From the NCBI GenBank assembly GCA_002838205.1, contig CP017950.1, forward strand, positions 1,370,858 to 1,434,857: 64,000 nucleotides of DNA, read 5' to 3'. The stretch's first letter is position 1. Every line of letters starts with the position of its first letter. Shown here one piece after another: positions 7,930 through 64,000 of this stretch. The position numbers were made by a program, and so were the translations under genes. The DNA is from Tenericutes bacterium MZ-XQ (GTDB lineage: Bacteria; Bacillota_I; Bacilli_A; Acholeplasmatales; Acholeplasmataceae). The notes under the pieces are model-generated. The model was not told the origin of the DNA, did not search any database, and worked only from the letters and a program-made list of their open reading frames with translations.

Positions 7930-8397
7930 TCACTCTATTCTTACACCCAAGACAAGAACATACTGTCCTTTATCCTGGTTATCATAAACAAGCATTCGCT
8001 TTTCTTTTGCAACATAAATCTTATCTACAACCTCAAGATCAAATGGTTTTAATCCAATACATGAGAATGCAGTTTCCATTTCTTTCTTGTTAAAATAAAT
8101 GCCATTAGCAATATAATATGGGTTTTTAAACGGTTTGATTTCAAATCTAATGTCAGTTACCTTTTCAAGTTTATCTTGACTTGGTTTGATTGATTTCAAA
8201 TCTGGATAGTTACCTGAAAGTATCTTTCCATTCATTAAACTGACAACAAATTCTTCATCGACTTTTCTTGAATTCTTTTCTATGATAAGAACATATGAAT
8301 TTGTATATAGGATCTCATCATCTCTGTAACATAGACCTTGTAATATAGGTCTTGAAGCTGCTCCTTTAGCAAGCCTCTTTAATTTTTCTAAATACAT
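7930..8397 (-). CDS. Hypothetical prophage protein, possibly sliding-clamp-like
   Basis: 155 aa. The segment ASRPILQGLCYRDDEILYTN with the following YVLIIE recalls the first domain of DnaN-type clamps, and DIRFEIKPFKNPYYIANGIYF is beta-rich. The length fits only about one and a half clamp domains. It sits just before the zinc and replication genes. A clamp-like role is inference. The start follows AAAGGAAGGA in the CCGAGCAAAGGA motif. Confidence 0.45.
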   Translation of the reverse strand: MYLEKLKRLAKGAASRPILQGLCYRDDEILYTNSYVLIIEKNSRKVDEEFVVSLMNGKILSGNYPDLKSIKPSQDKLEKVTDIRFEIKPFKNPYYIANGIYFNKKEMETAFSCIGLKPFDLEVVDKIYVAKEKRMLVYDNQDKGQYVLVLGVRIE

Positions 8398-8426
8398 AAA
8401 ACGTTCCTTCCTTTGCTCGGATTTTT

Positions 8427-8549
8427 TTATTTTAATTTTTTGTGAAGCTGTTCTATTATTTTTTTCAACTTGTCATCAGATAGTATTTGTACCTCTTCTG
8501 ATTTGTAGCCATATCCAATCAAGAAGGCTATCATTTTTTCTCTATTCAA
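8427..8549 (-). CDS. Short prophage peptide gene, 40 codons
   Basis: Begins with TTG at 8549, ten bases after a perfect AAAGGAGG; longer upstream frames have no site, and the in-frame ATG at 8534 lies too far from it. The product (NREKMIAFLIGYGYKSEEVQ...) is a small helical protein. It is the first gene after the promoter at 8585-8611. Function unknown. Confidence 0.5.
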   Translation of the reverse strand: MNREKMIAFLIGYGYKSEEVQILSDDKLKKIIEQLHKKLK

Positions 8550-8584
8550 CTTGAAATTTCCTCCTTTCTTTTTTGGTTTGAAAA

Positions 8585-8611
8585 ATGTTACATAACCACT
8601 GAAACTGTCAA
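8585..8611 (-). promoter_or_regulatory. Second copy of prophage promoter block
   Basis: TTGACA (complement of 8606-8611) and GTTATGTAACAT (complement of 8585-8596) match the block at 6487-6515, but the spacer is 15 bases, so strength is uncertain. The CCGTAA/TCGTAAAA pair follows at 8678-8700. Confidence 0.45.
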
Positions 8612-8716
8612 TTTTTTTATGTTTGTGATTTGCTCTTTGTTGTGCTGATATGTGCAAAAACTTATAAAAATATTTTACCGTAATAGATTTTCTCGTAAAA
8701 CTCGTACTTTTTAGTG

Positions 8717-8722
8717 TATAAT
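8717..8722 (+). promoter_or_regulatory. -10 element for rightward cargo gene
   Basis: TATAAT at 8717-8722, about 25 bases before the ATG at 8748. No convincing -35 is present; TCGTAAAA lies at that place and may be a regulator site instead. Confidence 0.4.
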
Positions 8723-8747
8723 GAAAACAAAAACAAGGGGTGGATTT

Positions 8748-9278
8748 ATGACTGAAACCATGCAAGCTGCTTTAATTGGTGCAGCTATTGCTATTGCTGG
8801 TGGTGTGCTAACTAACTTAGGTTTGTATGCATCTAAAATCTTTGATTATTTTGCTAATAAGAAAAAACTTAGAAGAGAACGATCTGAAGAGGTTTTATCG
8901 GAACTATGCATTCTTTCAAATGAGTTTTATAGAAAATCTTGCTATTGTGCTGAAATATCTGAAGGTAATTATCCAGATAAAGAAAGAATTGATTCAAGAA
9001 CTGTTTACTCACCTCTCATGTATCTAGGTGTGGTACGCAATGCTTTAGATGATTATATGAAAGTTTGTTCTAGTGCAAAAATTAAAGTTACTAACAAAAC
9101 CATATTAGCTGATATCTATGAGTTAAACCTTATTTCTGAAAAATTGGTAACTTACTTAAATGAGAACATTAAAATTGGAAATAAGAGAATATCAATGTCA
9201 GGATTTTCTAAATATACAGATGATTTAATAGTACAGCAAGAAAAATTAAACACATCAATTAGGTCTTATTTAAAATAA
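8748..9278 (+). CDS. Membrane-anchored cargo protein, opposite strand to lytic genes
   Basis: 176 aa from ATG 8748 (MTETMQAALIGAAIAIAGG), chosen for GGGGTGG five bases upstream. One N-terminal membrane helix (residues 6-28) is followed by a basic stop-transfer patch (NKKKLRRERSEE) and a helical cytosolic domain of about 140 residues. It runs against the lytic operon, as expected for a prophage cargo gene expressed in the lysogen. Superinfection exclusion is a reasonable guess without direct support. Confidence 0.6.
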   Translation: MTETMQAALIGAAIAIAGGVLTNLGLYASKIFDYFANKKKLRRERSEEVLSELCILSNEFYRKSCYCAEISEGNYPDKERIDSRTVYSPLMYLGVVRNALDDYMKVCSSAKIKVTNKTILADIYELNLISEKLVTYLNENIKIGNKRISMSGFSKYTDDLIVQQEKLNTSIRSYLK

Positions 9279-9279
9279 A

Positions 9280-9444
9280 CTATTTCCATCTATTCTTAAG
9301 TAGAATAAACAAAATTATTTCTAGAATATATACAATTACTGATCCACAAATAATTCCTACAACAAATCCTGGATCATAATTAATAACATAGAATATGATA
9401 GATACAACTATTAATAGCATTATCAATATAATGATTTTTTTCAT
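9280..9444 (-). CDS. Small membrane protein, 54 aa
   Basis: ATG at 9444, preceded by AAAGGA at eight bases; stop TAG at 9280. The product starts MKKIIILIMLLIVVSIIFYV and has two hydrophobic helices separated by NYDPG, ending LLKNRWK. It is tucked between two rightward genes and runs in the lytic direction. Candidates are a holin-like or partner small membrane protein, neither demonstrated. Confidence 0.5.
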   Translation of the reverse strand: MKKIIILIMLLIVVSIIFYVINYDPGFVVGIICGSVIVYILEIILFILLKNRWK

Positions 9445-9480
9445 TTATCTGTCCTTTCAAACAAATTTAGGAGGTATACT

Positions 9481-10122
9481 ATGGATTTAACTTTAAGCAT
9501 TATTAATTTAGTGATTACTTTGGGTATTGCCGTTTCTCAATTTTTTCTTTATAAAAAAGTAAATGATTATGAAACAATAAACAAAACGAAGTCAGAAAAC
9601 AGTAAAATATTATTTAGTAAAAAACTTACTGTATATGAAGGTGTTGTTTCTATAATTAGAAAAATAGAACACTGTCAAGCATTAGTCATTTCTTATCAAA
9701 CTGAGATTCAACAAAGTTCAGAACTTCCAACGCTAGTCAGTGATAAATTATCAGAAATAAACAAACTATCAAACGAGTTAGATGCGTTTATTTGGGATCA
9801 TATAATCTATTTTCCTGAAGAACTTATTGAGAAATGTTTAGCGTATAGGACCATCATTAATTTTTTTACTGAGTCAATTCATTTTAAATATAAATATAAT
9901 AAAAAAATGAAAATAAGTGAAATGTTGGAAAAGTACATTCATGTCGGTAACAACATTAACCCAAAGATTCTCAAAATCATAGAAGTAACTTTTGATTATC
10001 ATGAAGATGAGGATGACCCTGAATATGTTTATCAGTTTTCATATCTATCAAGATCAATGTATGATTTAACATCTGATATCACAGAAGACATTAATCTATT
10101 TATTGCTGACAACACATTATAA
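9481..10122 (+). CDS. Membrane-anchored cargo protein
   Basis: 213 aa with an N-terminal membrane helix (LTLSIINLVITLGIAVSQFF) and a helical, charged cytosolic part. AGGAGG with the flank AAATTTAGGAGGTATA precedes ATG; the same 16 bases precede the next cargo gene. It has the same architecture as 8748-9278 and 10268-10981 without obvious sequence identity. The 3' side abuts a degenerate copy of the tyrosine recombinase end. Confidence 0.6.
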   Translation: MDLTLSIINLVITLGIAVSQFFLYKKVNDYETINKTKSENSKILFSKKLTVYEGVVSIIRKIEHCQALVISYQTEIQQSSELPTLVSDKLSEINKLSNELDAFIWDHIIYFPEELIEKCLAYRTIINFFTESIHFKYKYNKKMKISEMLEKYIHVGNNINPKILKIIEVTFDYHEDEDDPEYVYQFSYLSRSMYDLTSDITEDINLFIADNTL

Positions 10123-10125
10123 CTT

Positions 10126-10233
10126 CTTATGAGCCCCACCAATTTATGTATCAGTTCTAGACTTTTCTGCATCATCGATACCACACATGACATATCTCAT
10201 GGTGACATTATATGAATCGTGATTATATATCTT
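10126..10233 (-). pseudogene. Duplicated C-terminal fragment of tyrosine recombinase
   Basis: About 108 bases match 11002-11109, the 3' end of the tyrosine recombinase, at roughly 85-90 percent by eye. Translated on the minus strand it gives NHDSYNVTMRYVMCGIDDAE, including the catalytic tyrosine region, then an in-frame stop before IGGAHKK. It lies exactly between two cargo genes. Confidence 0.85.
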
Positions 10234-10267
10234 AATTTCCCACTTATTAAAATTTAGGAGGTATAAC

Positions 10268-10981
10268 ATGTTTACCATTTTTTTAAACGAATCAAATGTC
10301 TTTTTATATTTATCATTTACCTTAGGTGATTACATCAGTTATTTTTTTGATGTCGTTTCAACTTTTTTATTGAGTAATGTATTACAGATTATAACTTTAT
10401 TTGTAACAGTTTATATTGCTGCAGCTCAACTTAGGCTCAAAAAGAAACTAACTTCAGATAGTTATCCACAAGCAGTTAAAATTGAAGCTAGTAAAATAAT
10501 AATAGAAAAGCAATTTTTGATAAATGATAAAATAATAGAAATTTTTAATGATAATATTAACCATTTGAATGATTTGAAAGACCTTAATAAATTTAGTCAA
10601 TTAGACAACAAACTCAAAAAATGTGAAATTTCTATTACAAAAAGCGATGATTTCATAACGCTAAACCAGCAATATATAAGACCAAAAATTAGAAATTTAT
10701 GCGATGATTTCTTGATAAAATGTAGTAATCTTATAGATGAATATAAGAAGTTAAATGAAGAAAAGTATAATCAAGTTTTCAAAAACTATGTAAATAATAG
10801 TGTTTTAGATAGAGATATAAATAGTAGTGAAGAACCGATCATAGAGAAATATAATTTTCATATTCTTGCTATAATGGATCTATATGATATATTTAATGAA
10901 ATAGTTGTTGAGTTTCAATTGTTTGTTGCTAAACTCAATTTATTATTTGGTGTTGATGATTTTATTAATGAACTTTTATAA
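10268..10981 (+). CDS. Membrane-anchored cargo protein
   Basis: 237 aa. Two N-terminal hydrophobic stretches (residues about 9-36 and 38-56) precede a basic patch (RLKKKL) and a lysine-rich helical domain. The start follows AGGAGG in the shared AAATTTAGGAGGTATA flank. It converges on the tyrosine recombinase with only 14 bases between. No known domain recognised; phage exclusion or defence is a hypothesis from position. Confidence 0.6.
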   Translation: MFTIFLNESNVFLYLSFTLGDYISYFFDVVSTFLLSNVLQIITLFVTVYIAAAQLRLKKKLTSDSYPQAVKIEASKIIIEKQFLINDKIIEIFNDNINHLNDLKDLNKFSQLDNKLKKCEISITKSDDFITLNQQYIRPKIRNLCDDFLIKCSNLIDEYKKLNEEKYNQVFKNYVNNSVLDRDINSSEEPIIEKYNFHILAIMDLYDIFNEIVVEFQLFVAKLNLLFGVDDFINELL

Positions 10982-10995
10982 CATATTATGACTAA

Positions 10996-11649
10996 CTATT
11001 TTTTATGTGCACCACCAATGTATGTATCAGTTCTAGACTTCTCAGCATCATCGATACCCCACATGACATATCTCTTGGTGACATCATATGAATCATGATT
11101 ATACATCTTCATGAGTGTTTCTGGTCTACCACCATTAAGCATGAAATGATATCCAAAGGTTTTTCTTAATCCATGCATACCAACTACGAAATAGATCCCT
11201 ACAGCTTCACAAGAATTTGTGATAACTGCATGTGCTCTTTGTCTTGTTATTGGATTAGAGTAGTTCTTTCCATCTTGTTTCTTCTTTTGGCCCATGAACA
11301 TGTAATCATATTCTGATAGACCATTTCTTTCGACATATTCTTTAATATCCTGGTGAAGATTTTTATTCATTTTAAAGTTTTGCATCTTCCCAGTTTTGTT
11401 TTCTTTGATTTGAACATAACCTTTAATAACATCAAATACTCTGAGCTGTAAAAGATCTTCGGCTCTGAATGCTGTATTGATACCAAGTAGACACATCATC
11501 CAGTTGCGGTCTGCTTGGTATCTTTTTACTTCTGTCTTAGCGTGTTCACGTTCTGATAGTAAGTAATACATCAATCTTTCAATGTCTTTTGGATCTTTAA
11601 TTGGTTTTGTTTCCTTTTGACCATCAAAGAACTTAATTCTTCTAGCCAC
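10996..11649 (-). CDS. Tyrosine recombinase, catalytic domain only
   Basis: 217 aa with GTG start after GAGGTG. Catalytic residues appear in order: Arg in TAFRAEDLLQLR near residue 62, the HGLRKTFGYH box near 159-168 and Tyr in VTKRYVMWG near 191. The N-terminal arm/core-binding domain of full integrases is short or absent. It lies inside the lytic operon, while a serine recombinase sits at the prophage edge, so it probably acts in genome resolution or recombination rather than integration. Confidence 0.8.
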   Translation of the reverse strand: MARRIKFFDGQKETKPIKDPKDIERLMYYLLSEREHAKTEVKRYQADRNWMMCLLGINTAFRAEDLLQLRVFDVIKGYVQIKENKTGKMQNFKMNKNLHQDIKEYVERNGLSEYDYMFMGQKKKQDGKNYSNPITRQRAHAVITNSCEAVGIYFVVGMHGLRKTFGYHFMLNGGRPETLMKMYNHDSYDVTKRYVMWGIDDAEKSRTDTYIGGAHKK

Positions 11650-11719
11650 TGTATCACCTCAATATTTAAGTTTAAAACTATTTGAATAGTTTTCTTGATA
11701 TAACATAGCCATAAGCACA

Positions 11720-12004
11720 TTAGAACTTAATATGCTTTAAATAGAGAATGATAGCACGTTCTTCTAATGGAAATGGACTAATCATAATTTCATCATTATC
11801 TATACCAATGATTTCTCTAAATGCTATATCTTGATAACCAACATGTAATCTTTCACTATCTGCTGTCTTAATTTGAACTTTAGCAATTCTAGTTTTATTA
11901 AGCTGCAGTATTCTTATAAGTCCATGATCTCTAATGATTTCCCAATTACCAGGATTATCAATAAAGAGTTTTCTATCATGGTCATTCTTTAGTGTCTTAG
12001 CCAT
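11720..12004 (-). CDS. Hypothetical prophage protein
   Basis: 94 aa, beta-rich (NWEIIRDHGLIRILQLNKTR, then IAKVQIKTADSERLHVGYQ). It lies 11 bases from the membrane protein gene in the early operon. No family recognised. Confidence 0.5.
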   Translation of the reverse strand: MAKTLKNDHDRKLFIDNPGNWEIIRDHGLIRILQLNKTRIAKVQIKTADSERLHVGYQDIAFREIIGIDNDEIMISPFPLEERAIILYLKHIKF

Positions 12005-12015
12005 GACACACCATC

Positions 12016-12288
12016 TTATAACTTAGCAAAGTCATCTTTTGTTGCGACTCTTCTTTCATCTGCTGTTGCATGTCTTCTTTCTACTCGTTTAAGTTCACTG
12101 TTGCAATCGCCATCAATCATGATGGATATCATTAGCAACTCAACATAGAAGATGCAAAGAAATGCAAGTATTAATACTAGATGAATAAACTCCATTTCAA
12201 CACTTTTGAAAAACACATATGTTAAGAATCCCCCTACAGATATTAATGCGACTAATAGGATAAAAAACATCGCTCTAACGTACTTCAT
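12016..12288 (-). CDS. Small membrane protein of the early operon
   Basis: 90 aa with two membrane helices (residues about 5-27 and 34-57) and a basic C-terminus (KRVERRHATADERRVATKDD). Its ATG overlaps the upstream TGA stop as ATGA. Function unknown. Confidence 0.55.
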   Translation of the reverse strand: MKYVRAMFFILLVALISVGGFLTYVFFKSVEMEFIHLVLILAFLCIFYVELLMISIMIDGDCNSELKRVERRHATADERRVATKDDFAKL

Positions 12289-14842: not shown

Positions 14843-14865
14843 GTGAATAAAGTGAGGTGTACAAA

Positions 14866-15216
14866 ATGACCACTGAAAATAAGTTAAAAGATTTTATATT
14901 GAATAATTATAAGAGTTTGAGAGACTTCTCTATTAAATGCGATATTCCATATACAACTGTTGTTAGCGTCATAAATAGAGGAATCGATAGAGCTGGAATT
15001 AACACTATAAAAAATATTTGCAACTGCTTAAGTATTGATATAAATGCTTTAGCAAAAGGAGAGATAGTTACATTGAATCACATCAATCAAATTGGTGATG
15101 ATTTTGTAATGAAGTACAATATCCTAAATGATGAAGGCAAAGAAAGAATGGAACTCTATTTGAATGATTTACTAACTTCTTATAAGTTCACTAGTGATGA
15201 TGATAAAAAAAAATAA
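14866..15216 (+). CDS. XRE-type repressor-like protein
   Basis: 116 aa from ATG 14866 after GTGAGG. HTH region near residues 15-55 (SLRDFSIKCDIPYTTVVSVI). The C-terminal 60 residues are short for a CI with a peptidase domain, so it is not a LexA-like self-cleaving repressor. It directly precedes the serine recombinase, so it is the likely lysogeny regulator. Confidence 0.65.
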   Translation: MTTENKLKDFILNNYKSLRDFSIKCDIPYTTVVSVINRGIDRAGINTIKNICNCLSIDINALAKGEIVTLNHINQIGDDFVMKYNILNDEGKERMELYLNDLLTSYKFTSDDDKKK

Positions 15217-15263
15217 GATAGGATTCTATCTTATTAATATGCTTTTTGGAAAGGGTGAGATAT

Positions 15264-16778
15264 TTGAATAGAGCTGTTATTTATGCAAGATATAGTTCTG
15301 ATAAACAAAATGAACAATCAATTGAAAGTCAATTAAGAGTATGTAAAGACTATGCTAAAAAGAACAAACTTAATGTAGTAGGAATCTATATAGATCGTGC
15401 TCAATCTGGTAAATATGATGATCGAATAGAGTTCTCAAAGATGATGAGAGATTCAGGCAAAGATTTATTCGATTATATAATCATATACAAACTGGATAGA
15501 TTTTCTAGAAATAAATACGATTCAGCTGTTCACAATCATACCTTAAAGAAAAATGGGATAAAAAGATTATCAGCTATGGAAAATATTACTGAAGGTCCTG
15601 AAGGAATTCTCATGGAGTCTATACTTGAAGGTATGGCTGAATATTACTCATTAGAACTTGAGCAAAAAGTTCGTAGAGGAATTAAAGAAAATCTACTTAA
15701 TGGGAAATCTATAGGTGGACATAAGGTTTATGGCTACTCCACTGCTAATCATAAACACATAGTAAATGAATCTGAAGCTATTATTGTAAGGAAAATATTC
15801 GAATTATATATTAATGGGAAAACCGCTAAAGAAATTGTATCTGAAATTAACATGCTTGGTCATAATCTAAATATGAATAGAGTCTATAGAATGTTAAAAA
15901 ACACAAAATACATAGGGGTGTATGAACATTCCGGAGTAGTTTATTCAAATATATATCCGAGAATAGTTGATGATAAATCTTTTTATAAAGTACAATCATT
16001 AATGAGTAAAAATAAAAAAGCTCCTGCAGCTAAAAAGGCACGAGTACCTTATCACCTTACAGGAAAAATGTTTTGTTCAAAATGTGGAAGACCAATGATT
16101 GCTGACTCTACTAATAAGTCTGACAAAATATATCATTATTATTCATGTAACAAAAATAGATCGATTCAACAAAAATGTAGCACTAATAGAATATCTAAGA
16201 TGCAAATAGAGACTCTTATAGCCAATAAGATTATTAATAATATTTTTACAGATAAGCATTTCAATGAATTAATTAAAGATAGCATTGAGTCATACAATAA
16301 AAACATTGATGATGATAGTAAAATCAAGTCTTTAGAACAAAATCTCAAACGTACAAAAAAACAAATCACCAATATCATCGAGTCAATAAAAGATGGCTTG
16401 TCTTCTAAAACACTTTTGCAAGAACTATCTAAACTTGAGAATGAAGTTGAAATATTACAAGATGAAATATATAAAGAAAATCTTCTAAAACCTCAAAGAA
16501 TTGATGATCGTAGGTTATTCTATATGATTAATAAACATTTAGAGTCTATGGATATAAATGAGATTAACGAATATGTTTTAGATGCTTTTTTAACAAATGT
16601 CATCTATGATGATGAATCAGTTACGATATTTATTAACTTTTTTAAAGAAAACAAAGTCACCATAGGTATGGATGAATTAAAAAGTTCGATTTCATACCTA
16701 AAAGGTGCACCATTTAATTATGACACCATAAGGTGTTTTTTTTATATTTTCTCTTCTAAATCTACGGGACATTCATAA
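15264..16778 (+). CDS. Large serine recombinase, prophage integrase
   Basis: 504 aa from TTG 15264, chosen for GGAAAGGGTGAG upstream. Domains in order: resolvase catalytic domain (RAVIYARYSS with the nucleophile serine near 11, then KLDRFSRNKYD near 85), recombinase domain, zinc ribbon (FCSKCGRPMI near 272, partner cysteines near 296 and 306), coiled coil near 345-400 and a C-terminal segment. The frame continues through a terminator-like hairpin and overlaps the convergent M50 gene by 37 bases, so its last codons may come from the attachment junction. Confidence 0.9.
   Translation: MNRAVIYARYSSDKQNEQSIESQLRVCKDYAKKNKLNVVGIYIDRAQSGKYDDRIEFSKMMRDSGKDLFDYIIIYKLDRFSRNKYDSAVHNHTLKKNGIKRLSAMENITEGPEGILMESILEGMAEYYSLELEQKVRRGIKENLLNGKSIGGHKVYGYSTANHKHIVNESEAIIVRKIFELYINGKTAKEIVSEINMLGHNLNMNRVYRMLKNTKYIGVYEHSGVVYSNIYPRIVDDKSFYKVQSLMSKNKKAPAAKKARVPYHLTGKMFCSKCGRPMIADSTNKSDKIYHYYSCNKNRSIQQKCSTNRISKMQIETLIANKIINNIFTDKHFNELIKDSIESYNKNIDDDSKIKSLEQNLKRTKKQITNIIESIKDGLSSKTLLQELSKLENEVEILQDEIYKENLLKPQRIDDRRLFYMINKHLESMDINEINEYVLDAFLTNVIYDDESVTIFINFFKENKVTIGMDELKSSISYLKGAPFNYDTIRCFFYIFSSKSTGHS
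16704..16778. other. Probable prophage attachment junction
   Basis: The zone contains the palindrome GGTGCACC (16704-16711), a terminator-like hairpin and the overlap between integrase end and the 3' end of the chromosomal M50 gene. Serine integrases usually have their attachment site next to their gene. The core cannot be fixed because the other prophage end lies outside the window. Confidence 0.35.
16722..16744 (+). terminator. Terminator-like hairpin inside integrase 3' end
   Basis: ACACC and GGTGT pair around a short loop, followed by eight T. It would end the integrase transcript before the annotated stop codon. Confidence 0.5.
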
Positions 16779-44316: not shown

Positions 44317-45507
44317 CTAATTGTGTTCATGTTTTCTTCCCTTCCAAACAAAGTAATACACTAAACATCCAAAAATATAAAGTGAAAGCAAAGGCGCAGT
44401 AAAATTTGAATATAAGATAATACCCATTTCTGTTTTTGATAGATCAATTCTGTATCCTATTGCTTGATTGTCATCAAACTCAAATTTAACATAATCTAAT
44501 TTTGTTATGAATGAATATGTTTCATTTGACATGACCAGTTCATAGTCATCATCAAATGTATAAATAAATTCATAAGTATCTTCATTATATACCAAATTAT
44601 CATCTGTATTTTGCTGACTTTCTAATAGTGATAGATACTTCAACTGGTAATATCTATCTGTGGCTTCTTCTTTATCGTATACTGAATAAGAAACAAAAGA
44701 ATTATCTGTTTTGATTGCCAAATCATATGAATCGGATATTGTGATTATTAGGAATGGTATAAATAAAACTACTAATAAGGTACCATTGAAGATTTGCCAT
44801 CTTACATTTAACTTATTCAAGAAAGAAATCTTAAAAATTCTTATAATATAATACGTCAAGATTGCTCTAACCGCTGTTAATGAATATGAATAGATAAATC
44901 TATAAAAGACAAAATCTAATTTCAATACCATGCTTGATCCAACATTATAAAATCCAGCAAATATAATGGTAGAGATGTTTAAATATAAAAGAAAAAAGCT
45001 GCTATGGAAACCTAAATTTAATAATTTGTTTTTTTCATTTATATTAATGTCTTTAACTTGTAGTCTTAAGTAGTTAACATTAATGCCTTGTATTACCAAG
45101 CCAATAACTATAATTATTATACCAACACCCATTCCTAAGGATGAGTTAGTTGTTATCTCACCTAAAACAATTATTGCTGCATTACTTAAAAGCCAAAGAC
45201 CTATGGAAACAATCAGATAATTAATGTAATTGTTCTTGATTCTTGAAACAACATAACTTGAAATACCAGCTTCCTTTTCAATATTTTTTGAAGTTCTTTT
45301 TGTTCCCCTTAAAATATCATCAACTGAAACTTCATAAAAGTCTGCTAATATGATCAAAGTAGCAACTTCGGGTATGCCTATACCGTTTTCCCATTTGCTA
45401 ACAGTTTTGTTTGAAACATTCAAATATTCTGCTAACTCCATTTGTGTTAATCCTTTTGAAATTCTTAAAGATTTTAAAAACTCTCCTGTATTGCTTGAGT
45501 TATTCAT
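44317..45507 (-). CDS. XRE-HTH fused to membrane domain (copy A)
   Basis: 396 aa from ATG 45507 after AGAGGTG. Residues 1-70 are an XRE HTH (LKSLRISKGLTQMELAEYLN); a linker (GTKRTSKNIEKEAGISSYVV) leads to about six membrane helices with one outside acidic loop (SLLESQQNTDDNLVYNEDTY). A DNA-binding head on a membrane sensor suggests one-component signalling. Copy B at 50248-51441 is about 90 percent identical by eye. Confidence 0.75.
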   Translation of the reverse strand: MNNSSNTGEFLKSLRISKGLTQMELAEYLNVSNKTVSKWENGIGIPEVATLIILADFYEVSVDDILRGTKRTSKNIEKEAGISSYVVSRIKNNYINYLIVSIGLWLLSNAAIIVLGEITTNSSLGMGVGIIIIVIGLVIQGINVNYLRLQVKDININEKNKLLNLGFHSSFFLLYLNISTIIFAGFYNVGSSMVLKLDFVFYRFIYSYSLTAVRAILTYYIIRIFKISFLNKLNVRWQIFNGTLLVVLFIPFLIITISDSYDLAIKTDNSFVSYSVYDKEEATDRYYQLKYLSLLESQQNTDDNLVYNEDTYEFIYTFDDDYELVMSNETYSFITKLDYVKFEFDDNQAIGYRIDLSKTEMGIILYSNFTAPLLSLYIFGCLVYYFVWKGRKHEHN

Positions 45508-45895
45508 GCATATCACCTCTTACATAAATTCTATTCTTAAAGAGATATGTTTCAAACCCCTTAAGTGGTTGATTCTGTCTACTTTTAAGTGGAAATTACT
45601 TTTTCTCAACATAGTCTATATTCTGTATTATGGCTAAGCCTTTTTTTCTTAAAATGCTGGATGTGTTTTAGTCTATTTGTAATCCAAAAGCTATCACATT
45701 CAAAAAATGTTAATTTATATAATTATAGCATTTTTCTAAGTTTATATTAAGAGCTTTTCTGAAATAATAAAAATCATCAATTCAATCTAAGTCATTAACA
45801 AAACTAGATATTAATACCGTTAAAAATCCTTTCACTAAATAAATAAACATACCATATTAATATGTTGAATTATTAATCGCGTAGAAAAACTATGA
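45508..45895. promoter_or_regulatory. Upstream region of HTH-membrane gene A
   Basis: Holds direct repeats CCACTTAA (24 bases apart) within 90 bases of the start, possibly an autoregulatory site, and a long AT-rich stretch. No gene seen. Matches the region upstream of copy B, where the second repeat has diverged. Confidence 0.4.
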
Positions 45896-47110: not shown

Positions 47111-47848
47111 TTACTCTTTTTTATGAAAAATAGATCTGATTTGACTAAGAATTCTTCTACCAAAATAATAAATTGATACAGTTATCATTTTTATCAATGA
47201 CCATGGATATCTAAATACTTTTTCATATAGAAAAATGCTGATGTATTTGATCGAATTTCCTATCCTGAAAACAACTTTTCTAGATAATAAAAATATAGTT
47301 TTAATAATTATGTAAACAGGATGAAAGATTTTTTTCAATAATCGCCAAATCCATATCACGACTTTCCAAAAATAATCTAAGATAAAGCGGATAATTTTTC
47401 TAACCTGCATAAATATATTTTTTATAAAACGATAAACTGGTGAGAACAATTTATGTAAAATATTACCAACCCATCTTACAAAAATACCTATGTATTTAAA
47501 AATCCAGCTAATTACTCTATAAATCCATCGACCAATGAATTCTATGATTCGATAAAAAGGTTTTAATATAGGTTTTAAAATACTCATAAGTCTAGTAAAT
47601 ATATTCTTAATAAAGGTATATAATTTCCCAAATATGCGCTTTAGAAATCTGCCTATAACTTCTAAAATTATAATAATTTTGTTAATGATCCTTATTAATT
47701 GATCTGCAATCCAATTTATACCTTTTTCAAGTAACTTAAAAAACCATTTTAAAAACTCGTAAATTGAAATAAGTACAAAAGCAATCGGATATAAGATGAT
47801 TTTGATTGGCCACACCAATACATCTTTGAATGTTATATTCTTTTTCAT
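47111..47848 (-). CDS. Cationic amphipathic helical repeat protein
   Basis: 245 aa, very rich in Lys/Arg, Ile, Phe and Trp, with almost no acidic residues. A repeating unit of about 33-38 residues appears at least four times, marked by P-F/V-Y (LKPFYRIIEFIGRWIYRVIS, FSPVYRFIKNIFMQVRKIIR, FHPVYIIIKTIFLLSRKVVF). Each unit would make a long amphipathic helix lying on a membrane. No known family. A membrane-shaping or membrane-active role is inference. Confidence 0.65.
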   Translation of the reverse strand: MKKNITFKDVLVWPIKIILYPIAFVLISIYEFLKWFFKLLEKGINWIADQLIRIINKIIIILEVIGRFLKRIFGKLYTFIKNIFTRLMSILKPILKPFYRIIEFIGRWIYRVISWIFKYIGIFVRWVGNILHKLFSPVYRFIKNIFMQVRKIIRFILDYFWKVVIWIWRLLKKIFHPVYIIIKTIFLLSRKVVFRIGNSIKYISIFLYEKVFRYPWSLIKMITVSIYYFGRRILSQIRSIFHKKE

Positions 47849-50247: not shown

Positions 50248-51441
50248 CTACTTATTGTGTCCATGTTTTCTTCCCTTCCAAACAAAGTAATACACTAAAC
50301 ATCCAAAAACATAAATTGAAAACAAAGGCGCGGTAAAATTTGAATATAAGATAATACCCATTTCTGTTTTTGATAGATCAATTCTGTATCCTATTGCTTG
50401 ATTGTCATCAAACTCAAATTTAACATAATCTAATGTTGTTATGAATGAATATGTTTCATTTGACATGACCAGTTCATAGTCATCATCAAATGTATAAATA
50501 AATTCATAAGTATCTTCATCATATACCAAATTATCATCTGTATTTTGCAGACTTCCTAAGAGTGATAGATACTTCAACTGATAATATCTATCTGTGTCTT
50601 CTTCTTTATCATATGTTGAATAAGAAACATATGAATTATCTGTTTTGATTGCCAAATCATATGAATCAGATATTGTAATTATTAGAAATGGCGTCAATAA
50701 AACTATTAATAAGGTGCCATTTAAGATATGCCATCTTACATTGAGCTTATTCAAGAAAGAAATCTTAAAAATTCTTATAATATAATACGTGAAGATTGCT
50801 CTGACTGCTGTTAATGAATATGAATAGATAAATCTATAGAAGACAAAATCTAATTTCAATACCCTGCTTGATCCAACATTATAAAATCCAGCAAATATAA
50901 CTGTAGAGATGCTTAAATATAAAAATATAAAGCTGCTATGGAAAACCAAACTTAATAATTTATATTTTTCATTTATATCAATGTCTTTGACTTGTAGTCT
51001 TAAGTAGTTAATATTAATCCCTTGTATTACCAAGCTAATAACTATAATTATTATACCAACACCCATTCCTAAGGATGAGTTAGTTGTGATCTCACCTAAA
51101 ACAATTATTGCTACGTTGCTTAAAAGCCAGAGACCGATAGAAACGATTAGATAATTAATGTAATTGTTCTTGATTCTTGAAACAACATAACTTGAAATAC
51201 TAGCTTCCTTTTCAATATTCTTCGAAGTTCTTTTTGTTCCCCTTAAAATATCATCAACTGAAACTTCATAAAAGTCTGCTAATATGATCAAAGTAGAAAC
51301 TTCAGGAATACCTATACCGTTTTCCCATTTGCTAACTGTTTTGTTGGAAACATTCAAATATTCTGCTAACTCCATTTGTGTTAATCCTTTTGAAATTCTT
51401 AAAGATTTTAAAAACTCTCCTGTATTGCTTGAGTTATTCAT
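50248..51441 (-). CDS. XRE-HTH fused to membrane domain (copy B)
   Basis: 397 aa from ATG 51441 after AGAGGTG. Same domains as copy A: HTH 1-70, linker (GTKRTSKNIEKEASISSYVV), about six helices and an acidic outside loop. Most differences lie in helices 3-4 and in the outside loop. Both copies are intact, so the duplication is recent or selected. Confidence 0.75.
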   Translation of the reverse strand: MNNSSNTGEFLKSLRISKGLTQMELAEYLNVSNKTVSKWENGIGIPEVSTLIILADFYEVSVDDILRGTKRTSKNIEKEASISSYVVSRIKNNYINYLIVSIGLWLLSNVAIIVLGEITTNSSLGMGVGIIIIVISLVIQGININYLRLQVKDIDINEKYKLLSLVFHSSFIFLYLSISTVIFAGFYNVGSSRVLKLDFVFYRFIYSYSLTAVRAIFTYYIIRIFKISFLNKLNVRWHILNGTLLIVLLTPFLIITISDSYDLAIKTDNSYVSYSTYDKEEDTDRYYQLKYLSLLGSLQNTDDNLVYDEDTYEFIYTFDDDYELVMSNETYSFITTLDYVKFEFDDNQAIGYRIDLSKTEMGIILYSNFTAPLFSIYVFGCLVYYFVWKGRKHGHNK

Positions 51442-51777
51442 GCATATCACCTCTTACTTAAATTCTATTCCTAAAGAGATATGTTTCAAACCCCTTAAGT
51501 GGTTGATTTTGTCTACTTTACGGTGGAAATCATTTTTTCCCAACATTGTGTATATTCTGTATAATGGCTAAGCCTTTTTTTCTTAAAATACTGGATGTGT
51601 TTTAGTCTATTTATAATCTAAAGGCTATCACATTCTAAAAATGCTGATTTATATAATTATAGCATTCTTGTAGGTTTATATAAAGAGCTTTTCTGACATA
51701 TTAAAAATCCTTTCACTAAATGAATAAACATGCCCTATTAATATGTTGAATTGTTAATCATGTAGAAAAACTATGAA
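51442..51777. promoter_or_regulatory. Upstream region of HTH-membrane gene B
   Basis: About 336 bases without a gene, collinear with the region upstream of copy A. One CCACTTAA-type repeat is kept, the other changed to CCACCGTAA. Confidence 0.4.
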
Positions 51778-61308: not shown

Positions 61309-62898
61309 TTATCTTATTTTTGATTCAACTCCGTTGTGAAACATAAAAGTGATACTTGAATCTCTATGTACCGTTGCCCCATCTACTAAGAGCATCCAAA
61401 TTCTCTCATTCCAGTCGCTAAGTTCATCTTCTGATTTAGATAGGCTTGCAATAAAAGCTTGCATTTTAAGTGCTTGTCCTTGTCTGTCATTTCTTTGTTT
61501 AAGAAGTTCTTCTCGTTTGGCTTGCAACTTATCGTAACGATTTGATAACTCTTCATACTTCTTGTTGTAATTTTCTATGCTATCACTTGTTTTAGAGTTT
61601 TCATTTACCAGCTTGCTTACCAACTCTGAAGTTATGAATAGTTCATCATCTAAATCTCTGATTTCATCATCAATCTTTGTCATATCAGTCAGTAATTCGA
61701 TGATTTCTTCTGAGTCTTGAATGATCCTTCTCTTATCTTCCATAACGAGATTATAAGCCTTGAGGAACTTGAGTTTAATATCCTCTTCTTTAAGATTAGG
61801 TGTTAGACACTTTTCTTTATGTTTATGAAACTTATTATTGCATTGATATACAAATCTTGAGTATTTGCTATTGGAATGCCATTTCTTTTTGCCATAGAAT
61901 CCTCCACAGTCCTCACATATCAGTTTTGATGCAAATACATCAGATGATGAGTATTTAGCACCAATTCTTTCTCTTCGTTTAAGTTCAATTTGAACCTGTT
62001 CCCACATATCTCTGTCAATGATCGCTGGATGACTATTTTCAACATAGTACTGAGGAATTTGTCCGTTATTCTTAACCATTTTATGATCAAGATAGTTTTC
62101 AGTATAAGTCTTTTGAAGGAGTGCATCACCTTTATACTTCTCATTGGTAAGAATTGAATTCACATTATTTTTGGTCCAATTCGTTTTACCAGTGGGGGTT
62201 TTTACTTGCTTTGATTTCAAATAGTTTGCTATGCCTGTTGCAGTCTTTCCTTCAACCAAAAACATCTTATAAATCATTTTGACAATCTCTGCTTGATCTT
62301 CATCAATCACAATCTTTTCATCTTCTTTCTTATAGCCTAGAAACGATTTATAAGCAAATGAAACTTTACCCTGTTGAAAGCCGACTCTCTTACCCCATGT
62401 CACGTTTTGACTGATTGAACGTGATTCTTCTTGAGCGATTGATGCCATGATCGTTAATATGAGTTCACTTTTGGGATCTAGCGTCCAGAGATTTTCTTTT
62501 TCGAAGAACACCTCAACACCGTTATCTTTTAGTTTTCTAACATAAGATATGGTGTCTAATGTATTTCTTGCGAATCTTGATATGGACTTAGTAATGATTA
62601 GATTTATCTTTCCATTTAATGCGTCTGCGATCATTTTATTAAAGCCTACACGTCTTTTTGTATTAGTCCCAGAGATACCTTCATCTGCATAAACGTTTAT
62701 ATACTCCCAATCTGGCTTATCTTCTATAAACTTCTTGTAATAGGTGACTTGAGCTTCATAGCTAGTATATTGTTCGTCTGAGTTGGTAGAAACTCTTGCA
62801 TAGGCTGCGACTTTCTTAACTGCCATTTGATTAAGTGGCATTTGTGTTAATGGGTGAATCGTAGATGGAATGACAGTAACCTTAGCCATGATGAACAC
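61309..62898 (-). CDS. Large serine recombinase
   Basis: 529 aa. Resolvase domain with nucleophile in AAYARVSTNSDEQYTS near 32, LIITKSISRFARNTLD near 97 and ESRSISQNVTWG near 155; then a recombinase domain, zinc ribbon (KLICEDCGGFYGKKKW near 338) and coiled coil. It overlaps the next recombinase by 17 bases. Tandem recombinases like these sit at the ends of ICE-like or SCC-like elements. Confidence 0.9.
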   Translation of the reverse strand: MFIMAKVTVIPSTIHPLTQMPLNQMAVKKVAAYARVSTNSDEQYTSYEAQVTYYKKFIEDKPDWEYINVYADEGISGTNTKRRVGFNKMIADALNGKINLIITKSISRFARNTLDTISYVRKLKDNGVEVFFEKENLWTLDPKSELILTIMASIAQEESRSISQNVTWGKRVGFQQGKVSFAYKSFLGYKKEDEKIVIDEDQAEIVKMIYKMFLVEGKTATGIANYLKSKQVKTPTGKTNWTKNNVNSILTNEKYKGDALLQKTYTENYLDHKMVKNNGQIPQYYVENSHPAIIDRDMWEQVQIELKRRERIGAKYSSSDVFASKLICEDCGGFYGKKKWHSNSKYSRFVYQCNNKFHKHKEKCLTPNLKEEDIKLKFLKAYNLVMEDKRRIIQDSEEIIELLTDMTKIDDEIRDLDDELFITSELVSKLVNENSKTSDSIENYNKKYEELSNRYDKLQAKREELLKQRNDRQGQALKMQAFIASLSKSEDELSDWNERIWMLLVDGATVHRDSSITFMFHNGVESKIR

Positions 62899-64000
62899 CT
62901 CCCTGATGTTGTTTCAATGCTCTTTGTTTTGCCTTCTCCCTCATTTCAGGCGTCCAAGCTTCACTTCTTGAGCTTTTGTTCCAAGACTGTTCAACACTTG
63001 TTTCATCTTTAAATTGAAAAATAAGTTTGTTTTCGGGCATCACGAGTACCTGCTTAACTTTTGATTTTAATACTTCTTCATCAAAGGATCTAATTTTCAA
63101 TATTGTTTTAGCAGCTTTTTTAATTTCTCTGTCTGGTACTTGTTTAGATGGGCAAGCTTCTATTCCTTTCGTTACTGAAAGTGAACATTTCCATATTTCG
63201 TTATGTGGTGTGGTTTTATGAGTATATGCTTTACCACAAATCCCACACTTTATCATGCCCTTGAAAGCTTGAGGTTTTTTATTTATTCTTGGTTTGATTC
63301 TTTCAGCTCGTTGTTTTCTTATTTCTTGAACTTTATCAAATAGATCCTTGCTAATAATCGCCTCATGATTCTTTTTAACTGCATACTGGTCAAGCTCACC
63401 TGAATTGATGATTTTTCTTTTAGATAAGTGATTCTCTCTAAATGTCTTTTGAAGTATCAGATCGCCTGTGTAGTTATAGTTGGATAATATGGTCATGATG
63501 CTTGATCTATTCCATTTTGCTGAATTCTTCGGAATGATACCTCGTTCATCAAGGATTTTGCCGATTGTATCGGCACCATATCCAGCAATGTATAATTGAT
63601 AAATCTGTTGTACGATCTTAGCTTCATCTGGTATTACGATGAAACGTTTGTCTTCAAGTGCATATCCTAAACATGGTTTGCCGCCCCATAGAATACCTTG
63701 CTCAAAGTCTTTCTTGATTCTCCATTTCATGTTCTCCGATGTGCTTCTGGATTCCTCTTGAGCAAATGTCGCAAGGAACGTTAGAATCATTTCACCTTCA
63801 CCGCTCAAGGTATGCACGTTCTGTTCCTCAAAGAACACATCAATACCTAATGACTTCAATTCTCTAACGGTTTCTAATAAAATGACTGTGTTTCGAGCAA
63901 ATCTTGATATCGATTTGGTGATGATCATATCTATCTTCCCCGCTCTACTATCCTCAAGTAAATTTTGAAACTCCAATCGTGAATCTTTAGTACCAGTTAA
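62882..64000 (-). CDS. Serine recombinase, N-terminus outside window
   Basis: The frame is open to the window edge (LTGTKDSRLEFQNLLEDSRA), so the start and catalytic serine lie outside. Visible: MIITKSISRFARNT, FEEQNVHTLSGEGEMI, recombinase domain, zinc ribbon (MIKCGICGKAYTHKTTPHNE) and a charged tail rich in K/Q/H (EKAKQRALKQHQGGVHHG). Partner of 61309-62898. Confidence 0.9.
   Translation of the reverse strand, partial: LTGTKDSRLEFQNLLEDSRAGKIDMIITKSISRFARNTVILLETVRELKSLGIDVFFEEQNVHTLSGEGEMILTFLATFAQEESRSTSENMKWRIKKDFEQGILWGGKPCLGYALEDKRFIVIPDEAKIVQQIYQLYIAGYGADTIGKILDERGIIPKNSAKWNRSSIMTILSNYNYTGDLILQKTFRENHLSKRKIINSGELDQYAVKKNHEAIISKDLFDKVQEIRKQRAERIKPRINKKPQAFKGMIKCGICGKAYTHKTTPHNEIWKCSLSVTKGIEACPSKQVPDREIKKAAKTILKIRSFDEEVLKSKVKQVLVMPENKLIFQFKDETSVEQSWNKSSRSEAWTPEMREKAKQRALKQHQGGVHHG

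Follow-up and report, generated by a model that had tools for sequence, protein, structure and literature searches.

A cargo slot for exchangeable genes is well supported, by comparison with related phages, in a prophage of Tenericutes bacterium MZ-XQ (Acholeplasmataceae). The slot lies in a 64,000-nucleotide window (contig CP017950.1, positions 1370858-1434857 of a single-contig 2.16-Mb genome), where it holds four open reading frames (ORFs): three neighbouring plus-strand genes, here genes 1 to 3, and a small minus-strand ORF between genes 1 and 2 (Table 1). A first-pass annotation of the window had taken genes 1 to 3 for prophage cargo, perhaps a set of exclusion proteins. Cargo status is now strongly supported: a shared left flank adjoins variable content, with one empty version of the slot and different occupants in three other phages. 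The best explanation is that the slot belongs to a temperate-phage family of Acholeplasmataceae and related bacteria. A conserved region of divergent regulation bounds it on one side, and in most members a tyrosine-recombinase gene, by its 3' end, bounds it on the other. In this reading, exchangeable coding sequences stand behind a fixed rightward promoter and leader, and they encode mostly proteins with a single N-terminal membrane anchor whose remaining part is probably helical and cytosolic.

The slot was traced through relatives of the tyrosine recombinase, which were retrieved from 29 loci (24 viral contigs and 5 genome contigs), 28 of them informative and one (L029) without any flank. 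A conserved element of three CGTWA units in the left flank occurs in 4 of the 28, and a plus-strand ORF of at least 140 residues with an N-terminal anchor is found in 3/4 loci with the element versus 0/24 informative loci without it; L065 has a 101-residue plus-strand ORF of this kind, 2.5 kb away. In L007, whose recombinase is 99% identical to that of the window, a different 81-residue ORF replaces gene 1 and a gene 2 homologue adjoins the recombinase gene, gene 3 being absent. L008 (recombinase 67% identical) holds a 190-residue anchored protein, a small antiparallel ORF and a 180-residue gene 2 homologue, and L063 (68%) a 199-residue anchored protein and a small antiparallel membrane ORF. 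The first proteins of L008 and L063 are homologous (27% identity, score 167, reached by 0/1000 shuffles); a scan of viral contigs with their alignment returned L008 itself only. The slot is empty in L059/L062, from a genome of the same family (G044), where the left flank is followed within a few tens of bases by the recombinase stop codon; the flanks of this empty site are 81% and 86% identical between L059 and L008.

On its plus strand the left flank carries the likely cargo promoter, and on its minus strand a TTGACA. It matches L007 at 87% DNA identity up to the first codon of gene 1, where the identity stops. The spacing of the three CGTWA units is the same in L007, L008 and L063, and the first two units are also kept in the empty L059. 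A search for the exact pattern matched two viral contigs, which carry L007 and L008; with one mismatch permitted, a search of 395 genomes of the class matched only that of the window. Other routes led to L063 and L059. Divergent phages with unlike switch regions retain the units, which may serve as operators, as an activator site or as replication iterons. Although the CGTA units looked alike, the idea that the phage's repressor governs the cargo through shared operators was considered and rejected, because the cargo element is common to the window and L007, whose switch regions, compared by eye, have different inverted repeats (TACGC..GCGTA against TCGCTTTTAGCG). A TATAAT and an A-rich leader with GGGG precede the ATG in all four occupied slots, which makes them the likely cargo promoter, as judged from this conservation; a promoter consensus scan omits the TATAAT site and counts 26 sites against 25.6 in shuffled sequence. 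The stretch from 8300 to 12100 yielded no intrinsic terminator. We place the start of gene 1 at 8748 because the leader common with L007 (TATAAT, GGGGTGG, ATG) ends there, and not at the ATG at 8721 of a longer ORF, which overlaps the TATAAT box.

The element as a whole is a prophage of about 35 kb, because minus-strand structural genes (terminase, portal, major head and tape-measure) lie leftward of the first genes in the window and a serine integrase stands on the right; its left end is approximate, and no att core was found for it, only short chance repeats. Genes 1 to 3 are oriented opposite to all structural and early genes. The three antiparallel frames of the first-pass annotation were recovered with the same ends, and they account, together with the serine integrase, for the 4/34 prophage ORFs of at least 140 residues that lie on the plus strand, counted with the left end approximate. 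Anchoring at the N-terminus only is found in 3/3 cargo genes versus 2/30 minus-strand ORFs of that size in the prophage. The hydrophobic N-termini described earlier were confirmed (19-residue Kyte-Doolittle peaks of 1.9, 2.07 and 2.01 in genes 1, 2 and 3), as was a basic patch after each anchor (KKKLRRER, KK and KKK); each protein has one predicted N-terminal anchor and a basic remainder that is probably cytosolic. The helical domain that had been ascribed to all three stood for gene 2, whose model, built from four sequences, consists of helices throughout (mean pLDDT 76), with a 75-residue helix through the anchor followed by a bundle; the gene 1 model, from a single sequence, is unreliable (mean pLDDT 56) and unusable for this purpose. 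The prophage holds, besides its serine integrase (15246-16778), a separate 217-residue tyrosine recombinase (10996-11649) in the early region.

Table 1. Features of the cargo slot and its surroundings; positions are those of the window.
Feature	Position	Strand	Basis or remark
Left flank, conserved, between leftward early genes and gene 1	8552-8747		87% identical to L007 up to gene 1; blocks common to L008, L063 and empty L059
Conserved element TTACCGTA-N8-TCnCGTWAAnnTCGTW	8675-8706	+	three CGTWA units, 15- and 9-bp spacing
Likely -10 box TATAAT of the cargo promoter	8717-8722	+	then leader with GGGG ribosome-binding sequence
Gene 1, 176 aa, one predicted N-terminal membrane anchor and KKKLRRER patch	8748-9278	+	ORF list, hydropathy
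Small ORF, 54 aa, two hydrophobic stretches, basic N-terminus	9280-9444	-	tail-to-tail with gene 1; GAAAGGA before ATG
Gene 2, 213 aa, one predicted N-terminal anchor and helical bundle	9481-10122	+	ORF list, hydropathy, model
Remnant of a second recombinase gene copy, 3' end, 113 bp	10124-10236	-	89% identical to 11000-11112
Gene 3, 237 aa, predicted anchor about residues 26-57, divergent gene 2 homologue	10268-10981	+	hydropathy, alignment
Tyrosine recombinase, 217 aa, right flank of the slot	10996-11649	-	Pfam PF00589 E 1.2e-16; phrog_216 E 8.9e-38
Short gene in repressor position	14857-15216	+	helix-turn-helix-like by reading only; no PHROG match at 1e-5
Serine integrase, right end of the prophage	15246-16778	+	phrog_95 E 1.4e-97

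The cargo proteins had been described as lacking obvious similarity to one another, and this fails for genes 2 and 3, which are homologous as judged by alignment: they are 32% identical over 66 residues that span the anchor and the linker after it (pairwise BLASTP E 4e-5), with a local score of 100 that is reached by 0/1000 shuffles (mean 44.3) preserving the composition of anchor, linker and remainder separately. Their C-terminal parts alone give no significant score (reached by 70/1000 shuffles). The set is accordingly not one of three unrelated proteins; gene 1, for its part, resembles neither of the other two. Gene 2 has homologues that are 53% identical in L007 and 25% identical in L008, both at the matching place, next to the recombinase gene. 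Compared with its L007 copy, gene 2 shows a dN of 0.35 and a saturated dS of 2.65, while seven of eight other genes compared between the two phages have dS values of 0.23-0.55. Gene 2 was thus exchanged and not co-inherited with these seven, and its dN fits a constrained protein. The eighth gene, the serine integrase, looks exchanged too, by its dS of 1.78.

Between genes 2 and 3 lies the 3' remnant of a second recombinase gene copy, which is absent in L007; over a 116-bp stretch the identity is 0.879 to the resident recombinase gene and 0.897 to that of L007. Because this remnant separates the two genes, gene 3 must have been stacked onto the slot by recombination. In the simplest history, a phage with gene 3 beside its recombinase gene would have recombined with a phage carrying gene 2 beside its own, and the product would read gene 2, recombinase tail, gene 3, recombinase gene, which is the order in the window.

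Gene 1 and the 190-residue protein of L008 both occupy the first cargo position; homology between them was considered and rejected (blastp E 3.1; 493/1000 and 408/1000 shuffles reach the score). The 54-residue ORF that fills the gap between genes 1 and 2 is on the lytic strand and abuts gene 1 without overlap. A minus-strand ORF at least as long arises in 10/2000 dinucleotide shuffles of this gap, and in 20/2000 for the corresponding gap of L008. Counterparts exist in L008 (58 residues) and L063, the three ranging from 54 to 60 residues, so that the small ORF is present in 3/3 slots with an anchored first gene (window, L008, L063) and absent in L007, the sole slot with a soluble first gene (0/1). 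The gene order is the same in the window (gene 1 plus, 54 residues minus, gene 2 plus) and in L008 (190 residues plus, 58 residues minus, 180 residues plus), and in L063 the small membrane ORF shares an ATGA overlap with the minus-strand gene before it. Clear homology among the three small proteins is lacking, their pair scores being reached by 116, 86 and 10 of 1000 shuffles.

The first-pass annotation had called the proteins a type not recognised, and the library searches bear it out: Pfam, PHROGs, NCBIfam and PADLOC give no match at curated cut-offs and none below E 0.01 for genes 1 to 3. Similarity to structural proteins, which the earlier annotation had named as evidence that would speak against its proposal, was not found at significance for the three. 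Direct searches for relatives of genes 1 to 3 were unproductive in viral contigs, phages and 88 genomes of the family, and for genes 1 and 2 in plasmids as well; for gene 1 no relative was found in the viral contigs, the plasmids or the 88 genomes, its own excepted, and the phage matches are at chance level. Three sets of matches to gene 2 were not accepted as relatives: one in G040 (E 9e-4) contains two internal stops, five class-level profile matches (E 1e-4 to 8e-4) miss the anchor, and one is a plasmid match at E 0.02. Structural comparison of the gene 2 bundle with four-helix sensor domains of the chemoreceptor ligand-binding type gave a VIA-align Z of up to 11.7 (rmsd 4.0, 129 residues aligned), below the value of about 13 given by the tool for ordinary helical bundles, and a best Foldseek E of 0.053; a PDB sequence search with the gene 2 profile found no match. 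An uncharacterised 23.2-kDa protein of the int-C1 region of the Haemophilus phage HP1, in a similar genomic place, ranks 18th in the Foldseek search at a non-significant E of 0.61.

We favour superinfection exclusion, or abortive infection at the membrane, by cargo proteins expressed in the lysogen, and give this reading about an even chance, because the shape, strand and place of the genes best match the lactococcal Sie proteins and prophage defence hotspots. We infer exclusion from location, strand, membrane anchoring and exchange: the cargo genes would be expressed from the resident prophage, and their proteins, located at the cytoplasmic side of the membrane, would halt incoming phages at DNA entry or shortly afterwards. 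With less support, the small antiparallel membrane ORF on the lytic strand would silence gene 1 upon induction of the prophage itself. In the passages cited, the Sie proteins of Lactococcus are membrane-associated, have a hydrophobic N-terminus, are encoded in lysogeny modules and confer resistance to other phages; the closest examples are Sie2009 and orf2 and orf3 of TP901-1, the latter two acting in tandem (PMC7693887). The cargo proteins are likewise short with a hydrophobic N-terminus, and their region would have a lysogeny role judging from its strand. There are a number of differences: (i), no Sie family profile in Pfam, PHROGs, PADLOC or NCBIfam matches the cargo proteins, which thus show no sequence-family match; (ii), the cargo has a second recombinase gene as its neighbour and lies some 4-6 kb away from the serine integrase and the gene in the repressor position; (iii), it would have a promoter and leader of its own. 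The likeness of the cargo proteins to Sie is one of form and place, short of demonstrated membership. The slot also recalls the hotspots of P2 and P4, described as intervals of 1-5 kb between conserved genes that hold antiviral genes, such genes lying in other phages also near integrase or repressor genes; conserved flanks and variable content are common to both (PMC9122126). In contrast to those hotspots, no recognised defence gene occurs in any of the four occupied slots.

Several observations weigh against exclusion. No cargo protein in the four occupied slots gives a match, at a curated cut-off or at a low E, to a known exclusion or defence family, and Foldseek finds no PDB or viral structure matching the gene 2 model at E 0.001. 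The membrane anchors are predictions from hydropathy alone, and anchoring is common but not universal, because the 81-residue occupant of L007 has no predicted anchor. In L063 the right flank differs, with other minus-strand genes separating the slot from the recombinase gene. The slot is seen in five phages only, and the other four are from metagenome-type records by name.

Among the rival readings, lysogenic-conversion cargo, that is, membrane proteins altering the host surface, stress response or fitness and unrelated to phage competition, is appreciably less probable than exclusion and yet a serious contender: the sequence evidence for cargo status serves it identically, and no defence family is recognised. 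Against it, the family libraries recognise no transporter, enzyme or adhesin domain in the cargo proteins, and short proteins with a hydrophobic N-terminus from prophage lysogeny regions have tested precedents as exclusion proteins in the passages cited (PMC7693887). Though this is unlikely, the proteins could serve the replication or lysis of the phage itself as membrane-anchored factors made in lytic growth; the slot adjoins early genes. Such factors generally combine an N-terminal anchor with a helical domain, p16.7 of phi29 being an example of a membrane anchor for phage DNA. Genes 1 to 3 nevertheless run against all early and late genes, and the cargo is absent from a relative with matching flanks and elsewhere swapped for unrelated sequences, which weakens the idea because an essential lytic function should not be dispensable. 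That the slot holds the filler of a decaying prophage, chance ORFs or degenerate genes, is very improbable: the truncated recombinase remnant does reveal rearrangement and few relatives exist, but the frames are intact with ribosome-binding leaders, gene 2 has homologues in L007 and L008 with a dN far below dS, and the first proteins of L008 and L063 are homologous.

A tentative proposal, which we think rather improbable, is that gene 1 and the small ORF form a membrane defence and counter-defence pair, in which the N-anchored first protein would attack or seal the membrane on entry of a rival and the two-helix protein of 54-60 residues would inhibit it. Read with the lytic genes, the small protein would let the resident phage escape its own defence. 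The system would then be a membrane counterpart of Tha/Ith, with effectors freely exchanged behind one fixed promoter.

The nested antiparallel gene in itself recalls two known arrangements. The Tha/Ith passages cited describe a noncontiguous operon of Staphylococcus prophages in which a small antiparallel gene encodes Ith, an inhibitor of the neighbouring defence protein, and in both cases a small antiparallel gene is nested among the opposing genes, here plus-strand cargo, beside a defence-like gene (PMC11087260). As differences, the small gene here encodes a predicted two-helix membrane protein and in the window abuts gene 1 without overlapping it, and genes 1 to 3 have no Pfam match. Tha, as described, is moreover a HEPN protein, whereas the HEPN motif, R-x4-6-H, was not found in genes 1 to 3 or in two L008 proteins. 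For Tai/Ati of lambdoid prophages, the passages cited describe an immune gene facing a lytic operon in which its counter-defence is encoded, to which a cargo gene opposed to a lytic strand bearing a small ORF may be likened (PMC11364771). It differs in that no profile matches and that Tai, in that account, acts on tail assembly, while the cargo here would encode membrane proteins beside early genes. The parallel with Ith and Ati as inhibitors is one of arrangement only, because the three small proteins are not demonstrably homologous.

We found no report of prophage exclusion in the wall-less Acholeplasma among the titles and abstract openings listed by searches of an open-licence library, which is not a claim of absence from print. 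The slot supplies at least three unrecognised families of membrane proteins, and its empty, filled and stacked versions form a natural series in which phage exclusion is directly testable. Were the small membrane gene on the opposite strand a counter-defence, the noncontiguous-operon principle of Tha/Ith and Tai/Ati would extend to membrane effectors.

Elsewhere in the window, the host part contains two near-identical copies, about 5 kb apart (44317-45516 and 50248-51450; 399 and 400 residues), of what reads as a helix-turn-helix-like and multi-helix membrane protein. A 245-residue ORF at 47111-47848 has an unusual composition, with repeated basic, aromatic amphipathic stretches. Two adjacent minus-strand genes at 61309-63976, serine recombinase-like by reading, mark a second mobile element at the right end of the window.
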